Assembly (NCBI GenBank): GCA_016287815.1
Contig: JAEEWW010000003.1
Span: forward strand, 17,483-81,482
Direction of reading: 5' to 3'
Length of the DNA stretch: 64,000 bases
DNA from: Treponema sp.
GTDB taxonomy: Bacteria; Spirochaetota; Spirochaetia; Treponematales; Treponemataceae
The notes below the pieces were generated by a model. The model was not told where the DNA came from and made no database searches. It saw only the letters and a list, made by a program, of their open reading frames with translations. Below are positions 57,471 through 63,984 of this stretch, piece after piece. Made by a program: the position numbers and the translations under genes. Within the stretch, counting starts at the first letter, position 1. Every line of letters starts with the position of its first letter.

Positions 57471-58208
57471 ATGAAACTTTTTTCTGATTACAAATTTGAA
57501 ATTACCAATGAAAGAATGGGAAAGTTAAAAAAATTCTGTAAATCTGTACATATTAATTTCAAAGATTATCATCTGCTTGATCTGGCTTTTCATCACCGTT
57601 CGTGCTCAAATGAAGCAAAAGGTTTTAAGCATCTTAATAATGAGCGGCTTGAATTTTTAGGTGATTCTGTACTTGGAATGGTAACAGCTTCCTATTTATA
57701 TAGGGAATTTCCTGAAACTCCCGAAGGTGAACTTTCTAAGATAAAGGCTTCTGTTGTTTCAGAAAAAGCTCTTGCTCCAATCGCGCTGAAATTTTCTTTA
57801 AATAAACTTCTTGTAATGGGTAAAGGGGCAGAATTAAACGGCGAAGCTGAAAGTCCTTCCATTCTTGCGGACTGCATGGAAGCAATAATCGGTGCATATT
57901 ATCTTGATTCAGGTTATCCTGCAGCAGAAAAGTATGTTCTTTCTTTTATTAAAAATGAAATAACAAAGGTAAAAAACAACCAGGGAATAAAGGACTATAA
58001 ATCAACTTTGCAGGAATATACGCAGAAAAAATATCAGTCTTATCCGGTTTATGAATTATTAGAAAAATCAGGTCCGGATCACGATCAGATTTTTAAGGTT
58101 TGCGTTCATTTAAATAACGTTACTTATGGGCCTGTAAGTGCAAAAAATAAAAAGCAGGCAGAGCAGGAAGCAGCAAAAATTGCCTGTAATCGCCTAGGTA
58201 TTCTTTGA
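57471..58208 (+). CDS. rnc: Ribonuclease III
   Basis: LAFHHRSCSNE, NERLEFLGDSVLGMV, ILADCMEAIIGAYYLDSGY, dsRBD at C-terminus; start moved to MKLFSDYKFE. Confidence 0.96.
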   Translation: MKLFSDYKFEITNERMGKLKKFCKSVHINFKDYHLLDLAFHHRSCSNEAKGFKHLNNERLEFLGDSVLGMVTASYLYREFPETPEGELSKIKASVVSEKALAPIALKFSLNKLLVMGKGAELNGEAESPSILADCMEAIIGAYYLDSGYPAAEKYVLSFIKNEITKVKNNQGIKDYKSTLQEYTQKKYQSYPVYELLEKSGPDHDQIFKVCVHLNNVTYGPVSAKNKKQAEQEAAKIACNRLGIL

Positions 58209-58265
58209 TAAGAATGAGTCACAGTAAAGTTTAACTGTTTTATAAATCCAATAAATTTACCATCG

Positions 58266-58413
58266 TAGCTAAGCTTAACTATGTAATTAGTTAAACTGAC
58301 CTATTTGATTAGGTAAACTTACCTGCTGGCTTAGGCAAACTTACCTAATGTAGTAGGTAAGCTTACCTAGTAGCTTAGGTAAACTCGTCTCACGTAGTAG
58401 CTAAGCTTGCCTA
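58266..58413. repeat. Array of seven 16-bp palindromic units with 22-bp period
   Basis: Unit starts 58266, 58288, 58310, 58332, 58354, 58376, 58398; consensus TAGGTAARCTTACCTA; unit 5 is a perfect palindrome; 6-bp spacers TGTAAT, TTTGAT, CTGGCT, ATGTAG, GTAGCT, ACGTAG. Confidence 0.95.
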
Positions 58414-58611
58414 ATAAATAAATGCAGCTGTAAATATAAACGCGTTCAGTCGGACTGATACATAAAGATTGATGTATATTTATGTATTATCGTAAATATA
58501 TGAAAGCAATTGGCTTATCCAGTCATTTATTCTGTAAATAATAAATCTTGTTTTTCATTTTTAAATATATTATTATCGGTCGGTTTTTTTTATAAAAACT
58601 GATAGATAATA

Positions 58612-58674: not shown

Positions 58675-58747
58675 GCGGATGTCATATAACGGCTTATTAT
58701 CTCAGCCTTCCAAGCTGATGACGAGGGTTCGACTCCCTTCATCCGCT
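58675..58747 (+). tRNA. tRNA-Gly (TCC)
   Basis: GCGGATG...TCAGC-CTTCCAA-GCTGA...GAGGG-TTCGACT-CCCTT-CATCCGC-T; 73 nt; the D-stem is AT-rich and weak. Confidence 0.9.
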
Positions 58748-58754
58748 CTTTTAT

Positions 58755-58897: not shown

Positions 58898-59113
58898 ATG
58901 AGTGATAAACAGATAGAATACTCTGTTTTCTGCATCGAAAATGTAGCAAAGCAGCTTGGTAAATCTGGCTCAGAATTATTTCAGATTCTCAATTCTTCAG
59001 GCCTGCTTCATTCATATATCATCCCTTCTTATGAAGCACTTCATACCCAGAGCAAGCAATATATCGTAGATGAAATAATCTCTGTCCTTAAAGAAAGGAA
59101 TCTTGTTGCATGA
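58898..59113 (+). CDS. DUF3791-like small protein (putative antitoxin component)
   Basis: MSDKQIEYSVFCIENVAKQLGKSGSELFQILNSSGLLHSYIIPSYEALHTQSKQYIVDEIISVL; strong SD AAGGAGG; overlaps the next gene by 4 bp. Confidence 0.75.
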   Translation: MSDKQIEYSVFCIENVAKQLGKSGSELFQILNSSGLLHSYIIPSYEALHTQSKQYIVDEIISVLKERNLVA

Positions 59114-59604
59114 AGCTCTACCACGGTTCAACAGTAATTGTAGATAAACCACTTGTTTCTTACGGTCGCGAGAACCTTGATTTTGGCAAAGGCTTTTACA
59201 CAACAAGTATGCAGGGCCAGGCAGAAAAATGGGTTCAGCGTTTTATTTCACTTGGTAAAAAAGGCATCATTAATATCTATAATTTTGATGATGCTGATAT
59301 TCAGAAAGAATACCGCTATAAGAAATTTCCGGAATACAATGAAGAATGGCTTGATTTCGTTCTTGCCTGTCGTGGCGGTTCAAAAGAATATCAGAATTAC
59401 GACATCATAGAAGGCGGTATTGCAAACGATAAAGTCTTCAACACCGTGGAACTTTTTTTCACAGGTCTTATAGATAAATCAACTGCCTTGCAGCGTCTTA
59501 AATTTGAAAAACCGAATAATCAGATTTGTTTTATTAACCAGAAAGTTGTAGATAAGCTTTTACATTTTGAATCCAGCTACGAAGCAGAAGGAGAGCTAGC
59601 ATGA
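59110..59604 (+). CDS. DUF3990-like protein, predicted ADP-ribosyltransferase-fold
   Basis: LYHGSTVIVDKPLV...LDFGKGFYTTSMQGQAEKWVQRF...VFNTVELFFTGLI; H...Y...E arrangement as in ART-superfamily proteins. Confidence 0.75.
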   Translation: MKLYHGSTVIVDKPLVSYGRENLDFGKGFYTTSMQGQAEKWVQRFISLGKKGIINIYNFDDADIQKEYRYKKFPEYNEEWLDFVLACRGGSKEYQNYDIIEGGIANDKVFNTVELFFTGLIDKSTALQRLKFEKPNNQICFINQKVVDKLLHFESSYEAEGELA

Positions 59605-59807
59605 CAGCAGACGCAACTCTTTTGCAAATGAAATACGCACGCATAATTTCTCTTCTGGCAAAAAAAGCAAATATTGATGAAGAAAAAGCTATGGAGCTTT
59701 TTTATAAATCAAATACCTACATACTTATGAGTAAAGGCATAAGCGACTTCCATTGTTTAAGTGATGCCTATCTTGTAGAAGAAATAATGCTGGAACAAAA
59801 AAACTAA
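59601..59807 (+). CDS. DUF3791-like small protein (second copy)
   Basis: EEKAMELFYKSNTYILMSKGISDFHCLSDAYLVEEIMLE; overlaps the DUF3990 gene by 4 bp. Confidence 0.7.
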   Translation: MTADATLLQMKYARIISLLAKKANIDEEKAMELFYKSNTYILMSKGISDFHCLSDAYLVEEIMLEQKN

Positions 59808-59813
59808 TACTAA

Positions 59814-60386
59814 TCACTTATTCCATTCACTATATATTCTTTTAAAATACGCTCCGCCATTTTCCTTAAGCCATTTATTCCACTTTTTATAATTTGGATA
59901 AATCTTAAGCACTTCATCATAAAACTTCTGTGAATGATTCATATGACGGCGGTGGCATAGTTCATGCACAACAACACTATCTAAAACTTCAAGAGGCATT
60001 AACATAAGGAGACAATTAAAGTTTAAGTTTCCATTAATAGAGCAACTTCCCCAGCGAGATTTTTGAAGTCTAATAAAAATTCGGTTATAAGGAATACCAG
60101 AAATTTTTGAATAATACTCTACCCGTTCTGGAATCAAAATTCTTGCTTTTTTCTTAAGATGTCGTATTTCTTCGACAGTTAAAAGGCCCATCGAAAGAGC
60201 TTGTTGTTTTTGTACTTCAACTTTTTCAATTTGTTTTAAAATCCAATCTTTCTTTTCTTTTATAAAATTCTTAGCAACAAACTCAGGAGTACCAAGTGGA
60301 ACTTTTACAATAATACTTTTATTATCAGATACATGAATACTAATTGAGCATCGTCTAGATTTTTGGATAATATAATTCAGTTCCAA
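59814..60386 (-). CDS. YgjP-like (DUF45) zinc metalloprotease
   Basis: VVHELCHRRHMNHSQKFYDEVLKIYPNYKKWNKWLKENG (HExxH plus NHS-x-x-F). Confidence 0.88.
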   Translation of the reverse strand: MELNYIIQKSRRCSISIHVSDNKSIIVKVPLGTPEFVAKNFIKEKKDWILKQIEKVEVQKQQALSMGLLTVEEIRHLKKKARILIPERVEYYSKISGIPYNRIFIRLQKSRWGSCSINGNLNFNCLLMLMPLEVLDSVVVHELCHRRHMNHSQKFYDEVLKIYPNYKKWNKWLKENGGAYFKRIYSEWNK

Positions 60387-60398
60387 AATTGTTCTCTC

Positions 60399-62954
60399 TT
60401 ATAAATATTGATCCAGCTGTTCTTTTATTTTATTCTCTTCTCCCGAACCTTTTGTACTTAATCTCAAAAGAGGCAATCCAATTTGCTCAAAGATAGCATT
60501 CTTCTTTAAGTCTCGTTCTGCCTGTTTTGTTCCCTTTTTATGGTAGTTATAGCCGTCAACTTCTATTCCAAAAAGGATCTCTTTTGTGACTCGATTGAAA
60601 ACTGTAAAGTCCACATGAGCCCAGCTCCGGTTTGCAAAAGTTGAAAGTTCTTCCGGGAGTTCTCCCATATAATTTTTATTTACCACATCTTTCAAAGGCA
60701 TTTCAAAAACAAAACTAAACTTTGAGTATTTAGGTTCTTCAAAGATTTTTGTGAGCAGTGCATTCATTGCATTTTCAGAATCATATTTTGATATTTTGTT
60801 GGCAACCTTAAGATACTTAAACTTAGCCTCAGTATCTTTTGTATAGAAAAAATCAAAAATCGAATTAACTTTACTTTCTTCAACAGTAAAATTGTTGTAC
60901 TGGATATACTTTAATAAAGCAACAAGATTAGAGTTTTCTGGCTGTTCATTTCCGGACAAGACCACTGCAAGTTTTTTCTTTGCACGAGAAATTGCGACAT
61001 TAAGCATATTAGCATCATCTGCAAAACTTGTAATTTCGTTATCAACAGTGGAAATAATAATATTATCTTTTTCACGCCCCTGATATTTATGAACAGTAGC
61101 AGCATCTATTCCTGGTAACTGAGCTCTAATTGCATCTGTCTGATTATTGTAAGGAGCTACAATTCCAAGGTTTGCTTTTTCCACATCAGAGTACTTTGGA
61201 AGAATTTCTTCTTTGATTACATCTATCTGTCTTTGGTTGTAATGGTCCTTACAGAAATTACCTGGAATAGTCTTAATTGCCTCCAGAACATCTAACTCCC
61301 CTTTATCTTCTGTCATTATCAAAAGCTTACCACCATAAAACTGCTGATTACAGAAATTTATAATCTTTGGATGACAACGGTAATGCTCACGAAGTAAAGT
61401 CTGTGGAGTCTCAGGAAGAACTTGTTCTAAAGAAGCCAAGAAACTGTTTATATAATTATATCCTTCTGGCAATCCAGTTTTCTCAAACAATTCTTTTACT
61501 GTTTTCTTCTTGCTTTCCTCTATTACATTTGGAAGCTGCATTTTATCACCGACAATGACTGCATTTTTTGCACAAGATAATGCAAGGGCTCCTGTTACAA
61601 CATCAACCTGTGAAGCCTCATCCATAATTACATAATCAAATAAAAAATCTGTTCCCTGTCCTATTGTTCCTCTTGAAGAGAAAGTTGTACTCAGAATTAC
61701 TGGATATTCATTTGCAAATGCAGCCGGATTAAAATAGATTTCTTTTCCATCTTTGAATTGAGGTCTTTCTACTTTCTTGGAATATCTATTTGCAATCTCA
61801 GAACGTAAAGTTACCAGACATTTATCATATACTTCTTGTGGATTAAATCCCTTTACTATTTTTTCATTGTCAGATAATTCGTTTTCTAATTCTTCTCTTT
61901 TACGTGGATAATATGTTGCTTTAATCGTTTCAATAACTTTTTCAGGCTCTGTCTGCCAGAATTTTGCAGGCCCAAGGCCATAGTTAGTTCTTAATTTAAG
62001 TTTTGTAAAAAAGCCAAGTTTTTCTTTTTCAGAATAAATAAACTGTATATTTTGTAACAAATCCATCAAAACAGAAGAACGATAATTTCTTAATCTTCTA
62101 TTTGGATAAATCTCATGTAAGTCTTTTTCGAAATATCTAGTTTCTGTTTGCAATGAATCTAATTCTGTATGAATTGAAGAAATCTTTTCGTTTGCTTCAA
62201 AATATCTTCCAAGATGTTTAATTTCCTCATCCAAAAGAATAGACATTGTTGGAAGTTGATTTTTCCATTTGGTTAAATACTCTGGATAACACTGCTGCTG
62301 ATTCTGTAAGAATTTTTCGATATTCTCTCGTTTTCCATGTGTTGCACAAATAAACCCAAATCCATATTTTTCAGAAGAAAGCTTTTCATAAACGTTTGCT
62401 GTAGCATCATTATTGTTAGATACAATGAGAACCGTTTTATTGTTCATCAATAAATTTGCAATAATGTTAAGGATTGTTTGTGTCTTACCAGTTCCAGGAG
62501 GCCCTTGAATAATACTCACCTGATTTTTCATGGCAGTCGAAACTGCCTTAAACTGACTATTATTACAACCAAAAGGAAAGATAAGTGATTTTATTCTTTC
62601 TTTTTCTGTTCTTCCTTTGCTTGGATTTAGATACTTTGCTAAAACAGAATTCTCATTTACAAAACGAGATTTTACAAGATTCTTTACAAGTAGATTCTGG
62701 CCATCATCATTTTTTATATCACTGAACTGAGCCATCTGAATAAGATAATCAAAAACAGTTGCCGATTGTTTATCTCGAAGTGTATTTTTAATTATCTGAA
62801 TATCCGAACTTTTGCAAGGGTATGTTTTTCCATCTTTGTATGTAATGAAATAAACATCTTTATTTCGATCGTGTTGTAATCTTGCTATATCATCAGTCTT
62901 ATTTCTTTTACCGTATTTATCTGTAACAAAAATGATATCGTGAAGTTCGTCCAT
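60399..62954 (-). CDS. Superfamily 1 (Upf1/Dna2-like) helicase with C-terminal DUF2726/PD-(D/E)XK-like nuclease domain
   Basis: IIQGPPGTGKTQTILNIIANL, FDYVIMDEASQVD, VGDKMQLPNV, LREHYRCHPKIINFCN, TVHKYQGREKDNIIISTV, NVAISRAKKKL; C-terminal HVDFTVFNRVTKEILFGIEVDGYNYHKKGTKQAERDLKKNAIFEQIGLPLLRL. Start at MDELHD, one base after the HNH stop. Confidence 0.88.
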   Translation of the reverse strand: MDELHDIIFVTDKYGKRNKTDDIARLQHDRNKDVYFITYKDGKTYPCKSSDIQIIKNTLRDKQSATVFDYLIQMAQFSDIKNDDGQNLLVKNLVKSRFVNENSVLAKYLNPSKGRTEKERIKSLIFPFGCNNSQFKAVSTAMKNQVSIIQGPPGTGKTQTILNIIANLLMNNKTVLIVSNNNDATANVYEKLSSEKYGFGFICATHGKRENIEKFLQNQQQCYPEYLTKWKNQLPTMSILLDEEIKHLGRYFEANEKISSIHTELDSLQTETRYFEKDLHEIYPNRRLRNYRSSVLMDLLQNIQFIYSEKEKLGFFTKLKLRTNYGLGPAKFWQTEPEKVIETIKATYYPRKREELENELSDNEKIVKGFNPQEVYDKCLVTLRSEIANRYSKKVERPQFKDGKEIYFNPAAFANEYPVILSTTFSSRGTIGQGTDFLFDYVIMDEASQVDVVTGALALSCAKNAVIVGDKMQLPNVIEESKKKTVKELFEKTGLPEGYNYINSFLASLEQVLPETPQTLLREHYRCHPKIINFCNQQFYGGKLLIMTEDKGELDVLEAIKTIPGNFCKDHYNQRQIDVIKEEILPKYSDVEKANLGIVAPYNNQTDAIRAQLPGIDAATVHKYQGREKDNIIISTVDNEITSFADDANMLNVAISRAKKKLAVVLSGNEQPENSNLVALLKYIQYNNFTVEESKVNSIFDFFYTKDTEAKFKYLKVANKISKYDSENAMNALLTKIFEEPKYSKFSFVFEMPLKDVVNKNYMGELPEELSTFANRSWAHVDFTVFNRVTKEILFGIEVDGYNYHKKGTKQAERDLKKNAIFEQIGLPLLRLSTKGSGEENKIKEQLDQYL

Positions 62955-62955
62955 G

Positions 62956-63984
62956 TTACACTCTCCATCCGCTTTCAAAACCATTAAATACAGCTGAGTG
63001 CCACATTTCTTCTAGTTTAAAATATGAATAACTCTTGAAATCCTGTTTAACTATTGGAAGCTCCATATTGCAGAGTCTACTGTTTCGTTCTTTTATTACT
63101 GAAAAATATCCTTTGTCTGGTAGAATATTACTCTTAGAACTATTACAACGAGGGCAAGCTAAAACAAAGTTCCAGAGTTTATCATCCTTTACAAAACTCC
63201 AAGGAATAAAGTGATCTACTGGACTGGCATTATCAGAAGTTTCTTTTAGAGGCCTTCCACAGTAAAAGCATTTTGTTTGATTGAATTCTATCAAAACGTC
63301 TCTATAGCCAGAAAGATTCTGCCGTTCTGTTGAGGCATCCAGTTTATTTGCAAGTGCATATGAATCCTCTTCAAGATTTGCTTTTTCCAGATACTTTATC
63401 CATTCATAATAATTCTGTTTTTCAAATACAGATTTGTATTTTACTAAAGCTTCGAATACGTCATGATTCAGAGTTATTCCTTCGCTCTTATCTGTTTTAT
63501 TGAAATGATAGAATTGATCATCGGTGTCACCACAAAAAGCACCGACAACATTTTTCATCATTTGTGCTTTTATCTTTTTGGTAATTTCTAATTGCAAATC
63601 AGGCTTTAAACTTTCAAATGGAAATATTAAATTTCTCTCTGAATAGTTAAAATCATATTTATTACAAAAATCATATAGCTCATGTTCAACAGCAGTAATC
63701 TTTCCAGAAGTAACAGCTATCATCTGTTTAAGATGAAATTTTAAAACCAGATTCCAGTATATTTCCGTAAAGCGCACAGCAATACTGTCGTAACTCAAAA
63801 ACATTGAATCCAAATCAACATTAAACACGTTATCCAAAATTGCCTTGAAGAAAGCGAATTTATATGTTGATGTTCTGGCAGTGTTTCCAGATAGGGCCTT
63901 ATTTACAAGGGCAATTACATCTGCTTCAGAAAGTGAGATGAATGGAATATTGTTTGATTTGGAATCCCAGTGTGTTTGGCCCAT
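62956..63984 (-). CDS. HNH endonuclease domain protein
   Basis: CFYCGRPL...PVDHFIPWSFVKDDKLWNFVLACPRCNSSKSNILP (HNH with CxxC pairs). The start is near the window edge and could be different. Confidence 0.85.
   Translation of the reverse strand: MGQTHWDSKSNNIPFISLSEADVIALVNKALSGNTARTSTYKFAFFKAILDNVFNVDLDSMFLSYDSIAVRFTEIYWNLVLKFHLKQMIAVTSGKITAVEHELYDFCNKYDFNYSERNLIFPFESLKPDLQLEITKKIKAQMMKNVVGAFCGDTDDQFYHFNKTDKSEGITLNHDVFEALVKYKSVFEKQNYYEWIKYLEKANLEEDSYALANKLDASTERQNLSGYRDVLIEFNQTKCFYCGRPLKETSDNASPVDHFIPWSFVKDDKLWNFVLACPRCNSSKSNILPDKGYFSVIKERNSRLCNMELPIVKQDFKSYSYFKLEEMWHSAVFNGFESGWRV

Follow-up and report, generated by a model that had tools for sequence, protein, structure and literature searches.

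The 64 kb stretch of Treponema sp. DNA analysed in our study (hereafter the window) carries an array of seven 16-bp palindromes, placed in exact phase at 22 bp start-to-start (58266-58413), in the gap between the RNase III gene rnc and a tRNA-Gly gene. Comparison with other loci and genomes makes it rather likely that this array is an orphan, a solo copy of the array part of a module, in which a gene for an HU-like protein and a row of palindromic sites occur together, with dimers of the encoded protein as the presumed occupants of the sites. The proposed module would consist of a gene for an HU-fold protein fused to an immunoglobulin-like (Ig-like) domain (HU-Ig; PF14848 plus PF14734), with 4-17 palindromic sites, spaced at 22 or 23 bp, beginning no more than a few bases after the gene. 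In the genome to which the window belongs, such a gene with its array is present on contig 70, and six further arrays of the same palindrome, that of the window included, lie in other intergenic gaps.

Association between HU-Ig genes and phased arrays

The array on contig 70 (C70) has seven units and overlaps the 3' end of a gene of the HU-DNA_bdg plus DUF4469 type. The encoded protein has a PF14848 HU-like domain (1.4e-13, 51.4 bits against a cut-off of 30) followed by a PF14734 Ig-like domain (2.7e-21, 75.9 bits against a cut-off of 22.6). A model of the protein matches 4fmr (1.4e-16), an HU-like structure from Bacteroides that carries the annotation of a putative DNA-binding protein; classical HU and the Borrelia Hbb-DNA complex are matched more weakly. 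The C70 protein and those of Parabacteroides are members of the HU-HIG / HU-DNA_bdg family of Bacteroidota (PF18291, PF14848; 4fmr). Relatives of the C70 gene are multi-copy and were found in 91 of 200 genomes of the genus, with up to 16 matches per genome. The C70 locus thus has the arrangement that defines the module, a 22/23-bp array directly 3' of an HU gene, and the window copy is an orphan on another contig.

Reading the loci around HU-Ig genes without any assumption about the motif revealed palindromic arrays that differ in sequence and have a period of 22 or 23, for example 17 units of CTAAAGCATAATTTAG. The best period in the 3' window was 22 or 23 for 45 of the 63 HU-Ig genes and was significant in 33 of 63, just 3' of the stop codon, with the first unit beginning a median of 8 nt from it. 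Significant 22/23-bp arrays were found in none of 58 upstream regions of the same genes (Fisher 1.7e-12) and in none of the 3' regions of 99 control genes (Fisher 3e-17). The period of the array also tracks the clade of the HU protein, with 3 changes on the tree versus 9.8 in shuffles, none of 500 being as low. In Parabacteroides distasonis, a clear 23-bp array lies 3' of three of the four HU-DUF4469 genes, that of WP_121955811.1 being an array of CATGATAGCTTTCATG. In two Reichenbachiella genomes an HU-HIG gene lies about 200 bp from a 22-bp array, which is here upstream of the gene. In the window genome itself, an HU-Ig gene with a short N-terminus on contig 42 (L247:1105-1755) has a separate 22-bp array, built of another palindrome, ATTTACGGTCGTAAGT, and no array was seen at the HU-Ig genes on contigs 30, 114 and 121. 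The array is absent or weak at two plasmid HU genes of Treponema saccharophilum.

Constant spacing and conserved half-sites

Seven arrays of the unit are present in the window genome, on contigs 1, 70, 86, 93, 97, 118 and 141 (the last one holding the window), all of them intergenic and with 4-7 units each. Their 41 units hold 221 substitutions relative to the consensus and no insertion or deletion, which supports the original prediction that the fixed spacing is under constraint. A dispersed repeat with variable spacing had been named there as the contrary outcome; the repeat is indeed dispersed, and its spacing is constant. Searched with a pattern of two units that carry the half-site at a distance of 22 bp, the window genome gave 34 matches; these are all the adjacent unit pairs of the seven arrays, nothing else in the genome matched, and the reversed-pattern control gave none. 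The half-site nAGnTAAr hardly varies between units: positions 2, 3, 5, 7, 10, 14 and 15 are identical in at least 40 of the 41 units, positions 6 and 12 are nearly as constant, and positions 1, 4, 13 and 16 drift, as does the spacer.

The two halves of the palindrome do not covary (p 0.77, 41 units), nor do the half-sites facing each other across the spacer (p 0.91). Since the halves vary independently, a dimeric protein on duplex DNA fits better than hairpins, and each half-site would be recognised separately, as if by a single subunit of the dimer, with the pairing itself not being kept. The same data bear on an explanation that we consider unlikely, in which the arrays act as RNA hairpins (transcribed with the HU-Ig mRNA or separately) or as extruded cruciforms, and HU-Ig binds structure and not sequence. 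There is a precedent in E. coli, where HU favours distorted and cruciform DNA and binds the REP325-encoded RNA naRNA4 (PMC6907758). The start of the arrays about 8 nt past the HU stop codon, the change of arms between loci while the symmetry stays, and RNA folds far better than shuffles in six of the seven arrays (z -4.8 to -6.3; -2.8 in the seventh) are in its favour. However, good folding is built into any array of palindromes, changes in the window family are 50 single-sided versus 5 compensatory, and the orphan arrays keep neither a fixed side nor a fixed orientation relative to the unrelated genes next to them. The pooled covariation over other arrays was not used as evidence for hairpins because their units had been pre-selected for pairing, a choice that inflates it. 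The suggestion that RNA hairpins are the selected feature is thus not borne out for the window family by compensatory changes, though its RNA would fold well.

The conserved dyad half-site and the position of a few arrays upstream of genes could also be expected of operator arrays of a conventional transcription factor acting on the neighbouring genes. This explanation is very improbable in our judgement, since three of the seven arrays sit between convergent genes and hence have no promoter to control; moreover, the neighbours of the seven arrays have no function in common, and the association of arrays with HU genes would be left unexplained. Of the cooperative operator array for a dimeric regulator that had been suggested earlier, a cooperative array for a dimeric DNA-binding protein is supported and a conventional operator is unlikely.

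Most of the seven arrays extend in phase, on one side, into AT-rich palindromes of another type (type B), and type-B-like palindromes form whole arrays elsewhere in the window genome and are also found 3' of an HU gene in a relative. A second 22-bp-phased family, with the core ATTGCAAT, was observed on contigs 11, 122 and 144 (L316:1518-1731, L314:2200-2501 and L315:2085-2364), and the L314 array is a mosaic which shifts in phase to other palindromes (ATTTGTTCTAACAAAC).

Orphan copies and distribution

Two loci help to interpret the arrays that stand alone. In the genome G066, two loci besides that of one HU gene carry the palindrome of this gene (at least 12 and about 35 units), making three loci in all, and one of the two additional arrays is situated behind a decayed HU relative (E 2e-26). 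In the window genome, the array between vapC and groL (L019) retains, in the same place, a remnant of the final 17 codons of the HU gene (76% DNA identity, E 2e-9). It is therefore best to regard orphan arrays as copied or left over from whole modules. As a separate observation, a lone Gp49/RelE-like toxin-type gene with no obvious antitoxin (L015:7818-8183) immediately precedes another array copy, and further copies adjoin a PIN gene (L019) and an XRE gene (L017).

Dispersed intergenic copies with a variable number of units would also be produced by a non-autonomous mobile element, a minisatellite-carrying miniature inverted-repeat transposable element (MITE) like BrickBuilt, for which the proximity of HU genes would reflect a settling site or use as a terminator or promoter. 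A 68-bp tail common to two of the seven copies, the gap between rnc and tRNA-Gly of 466 bp in the window versus about 70 bp in the closest relative found via rnc (about 390 bp extra), and the location of the Reichenbachiella arrays inside a repeated block agree with such an origin. We nevertheless regard it as improbable, as it leaves unexplained the occurrence in 33 of 63 versus 0 of 99 regions, the offset of few bases from the stop codon and the tracking of period with clade. Comparison of the flanks of the seven arrays also gave no common ends except for that one pair, terminal inverted repeats and target duplications not having been looked at in detail.

Outside the window genome the family is rare. 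Only one other genome among the 200 of the genus carries an array, with five units and a drifted half-site TGGCTAAR (three-unit profile R1 plus pattern), and 393 genomes of the phylum yielded no further 22-bp array. When 85,000 species genomes were scanned for exact matches, the hits were in Bacteroidota only. Among them, Reichenbachiella agariperforans has several distinct 22-bp arrays whose half-sites are related, and its main block is also present in a genome of the same family. No convincing arrays were obtained from viral contigs in exact-pattern scans or from phage and plasmid collections searched by blastn with the window array. Plasmid matches to the whole region were dropped as array relatives, the matches being to the tRNA, and weak model matches in other Treponema and in G659 were dropped as single units or a 21-bp coding-like repeat. 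The G659 locus (L208:800-1030) is a 21-bp tandem repeat of GGTAAGCTTAC units, open as coding, unit-like but not phased at 22 bp. A 22-bp tandem repeat of GATAAATTTACGTACTTAGGCA with decaying palindromes in a metagenome-assembled genome of Tannerellaceae (L075:495-620) is possibly an HU-type array in another member of Bacteroidales.

Proposed role of HU-Ig dimers

The HU dimer has two-fold symmetry and bends DNA, and 22-23 bp correspond to about two helical turns. From these properties and the sequence comparisons, the window array probably offers HU-Ig dimers a row of sites, on which they would sit side by side, on successive palindromes and on one face of the helix. The result may be a short ordered nucleoprotein stretch at dispersed sites which bends, wraps or bridges the chromosome, and the array perhaps also controls the HU-Ig gene itself. 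Orphan arrays would probably have originated from duplication or decay of whole modules. Binding of duplex arrays by HU-Ig is ranked first among the explanations on this evidence, and the RNA or cruciform explanation second.

Several points weigh against reading the window array as the orphan of an HU-Ig module. The HU gene is on a different contig from the window array, no HU relic was found in the flanks of the latter, and no HU gene was present within the stretches read around the second-family and type-B arrays of the window genome. Thirty of the 63 HU-Ig genes have no significant 22/23-bp array; some of the 63 loci are near-copies, and the independent cases are fewer than 33. The array p-values come from 60 single-base shuffles with a floor of 0.016, and the sweep of HU genes was prompted beforehand by the C70 neighbour. 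The motif was the search criterion for Reichenbachiella, so its shared half-site is not independent evidence, though its HU neighbour is. Finally, in the period-23 group the HU proteins are close in alignment and the arms of their palindromes are quite different, which is a difficulty if the sequence is recognised by HU alone. Across the differing arms the symmetry is kept, as is a GCRTAR-like core. Either the specificity switches fast, or structure is read.

Comparison with known systems

BrickBuilt, a MITE/minisatellite of Porphyromonas gingivalis, consists of spacerless direct 23-nt repeats, and it has leader and tail ends as well as inverted terminal repeats (PMC4596501). It resembles the present arrays in its dispersed intergenic tandem units of 23 nt, variable in number and divergent, and in its limited host range, and its host is of the same phylum as Parabacteroides and Reichenbachiella. 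The window unit, on the other hand, is 22 bp long, a 16-bp palindrome plus a variable spacer of 6 bp, and not a 23-nt spacerless repeat; moreover, PMC4596501 gives no link to an HU gene, one of its 19 copies adjoining a PF00216 gene (its Table 1). E. coli HU with REP325/naRNA4 is likewise a case of an HU-family protein working with tandem palindromic intergenic repeats (PMC6907758), whereas that HU is small and not sequence-specific, its genes are not beside REP325, and there is neither a strict 22/23-bp phase nor a private array for each HU gene.

Repetitive extragenic palindromes and bacterial interspersed mosaic elements (REP/BIME) are dispersed palindromes whose cognate gene, flanked by copies, encodes the REP-associated tyrosine transposase (RAYT), an HUH (Y1) transposase acting on single-stranded hairpins. 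The likeness lies in dispersed palindromes with a cognate protein gene; the RAYT system is without helical phasing, and its GTAG heads are not conserved in the window family. A REP/RAYT assignment was dropped with no GTAG-type head or invariant tetranucleotide found and the spacers variable. The iteron proposed earlier was abandoned, as there is no replication initiator (rep) gene among the neighbours (rnc, tRNA-Gly, DUF3791, DUF3990). An array of clustered regularly interspaced short palindromic repeats (CRISPR) was also rejected, the 16-bp unit and 6-bp spacer standing against repeats of about 23-47 bp and unique spacers of about 20-70 bp.

The window array and its surroundings

With up to 3 mismatches, TAGGTAARCTTACCTA has 12 matches in the window, every one within the array (expected 0.79; 12 was reached by no shuffle), and the 700-bp region around the array has a top phased-palindrome score of 26.6 against a shuffle maximum of 15.4 (n=500). 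Rfam gave no match at the array. The starts given in the original prediction (58266, 58288, 58310, 58332, 58354, 58376 and 58398) are exact. The units, to which no strand is assigned, are TAGCTAAGCTTAACTA (58266-58281), TAGTTAAACTGACCTA (58288-58303), TAGGTAAACTTACCTG (58310-58325), TAGGCAAACTTACCTA (58332-58347), TAGGTAAGCTTACCTA (58354-58369), a perfect palindrome, TAGGTAAACTCGTCTC (58376-58391) and TAGCTAAGCTTGCCTA (58398-58413). All seven are in place as had been described, but the right half-site of the sixth has decayed (3/8 pairs). The 6-bp spacers do differ, and are non-random with a weak consensus ATGTAY. The additional degenerate unit suspected at 58222-58237, CAGTAAAGTTTAACTG, is in phase with 6/8 pairs, and a possible one at 58200-58215, ATTCTTTGATAAGAAT, is likewise in phase with 6/8 pairs and overlaps the rnc stop codon. 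On the right side, an AT-rich type-B palindrome, AAATGCAGCTGTAAAT (58420-58435), keeps the phase of the array.

The neighbours rnc (57471-58208, + strand) on the left and tRNA-Gly(TCC) (58675-58748, + strand) on the right are host genes outside the element. Directly after the tRNA gene, a DUF3791 - DUF3990 - DUF3791-like trio (58898-59807) resembles a small accessory, toxin-antitoxin-like cassette. It is followed on the - strand by an accessory block (59814-63984) of a predicted metallopeptidase-like protein, a large helicase/nuclease-like open reading frame (ORF) and an HNH-like ORF, which, judging by sequence alone, is possibly a defence island.

Implications

Bacteroidota and some spirochetes have many copies of HU-HIG type proteins, to which, to our knowledge, no job has been assigned. 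We know of no cognate DNA element for HU-HIG / HU-DNA_bdg proteins; neither such an element nor a description of the pairing of HU genes with arrays was found in the open-access literature searched. The gene-plus-array pairs of gut Treponema and Bacteroidota, each with its own palindrome, point to an undescribed class of DNA-organising elements. More tentatively, HU-Ig might form a multi-copy, diversifying address system, in which a gene has a private array, copies of the array are scattered and the protein coats only those copies, either structuring the chromosome or marking self versus invading DNA; the palindromes would change fast while the 22- or 23-bp geometry stays fixed for each protein clade.

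If the proposed reading is true, the phased, gene-adjacent array would be a candidate DNA target for HU-HIG type proteins, and their binding would become directly testable. It could account for at least some of the unexplained 22-23-bp minisatellites of gut and oral bacteria, and it would reveal an HU-fold family with dedicated arrays of sites, in which the period of the array is tied to the clade of the protein.
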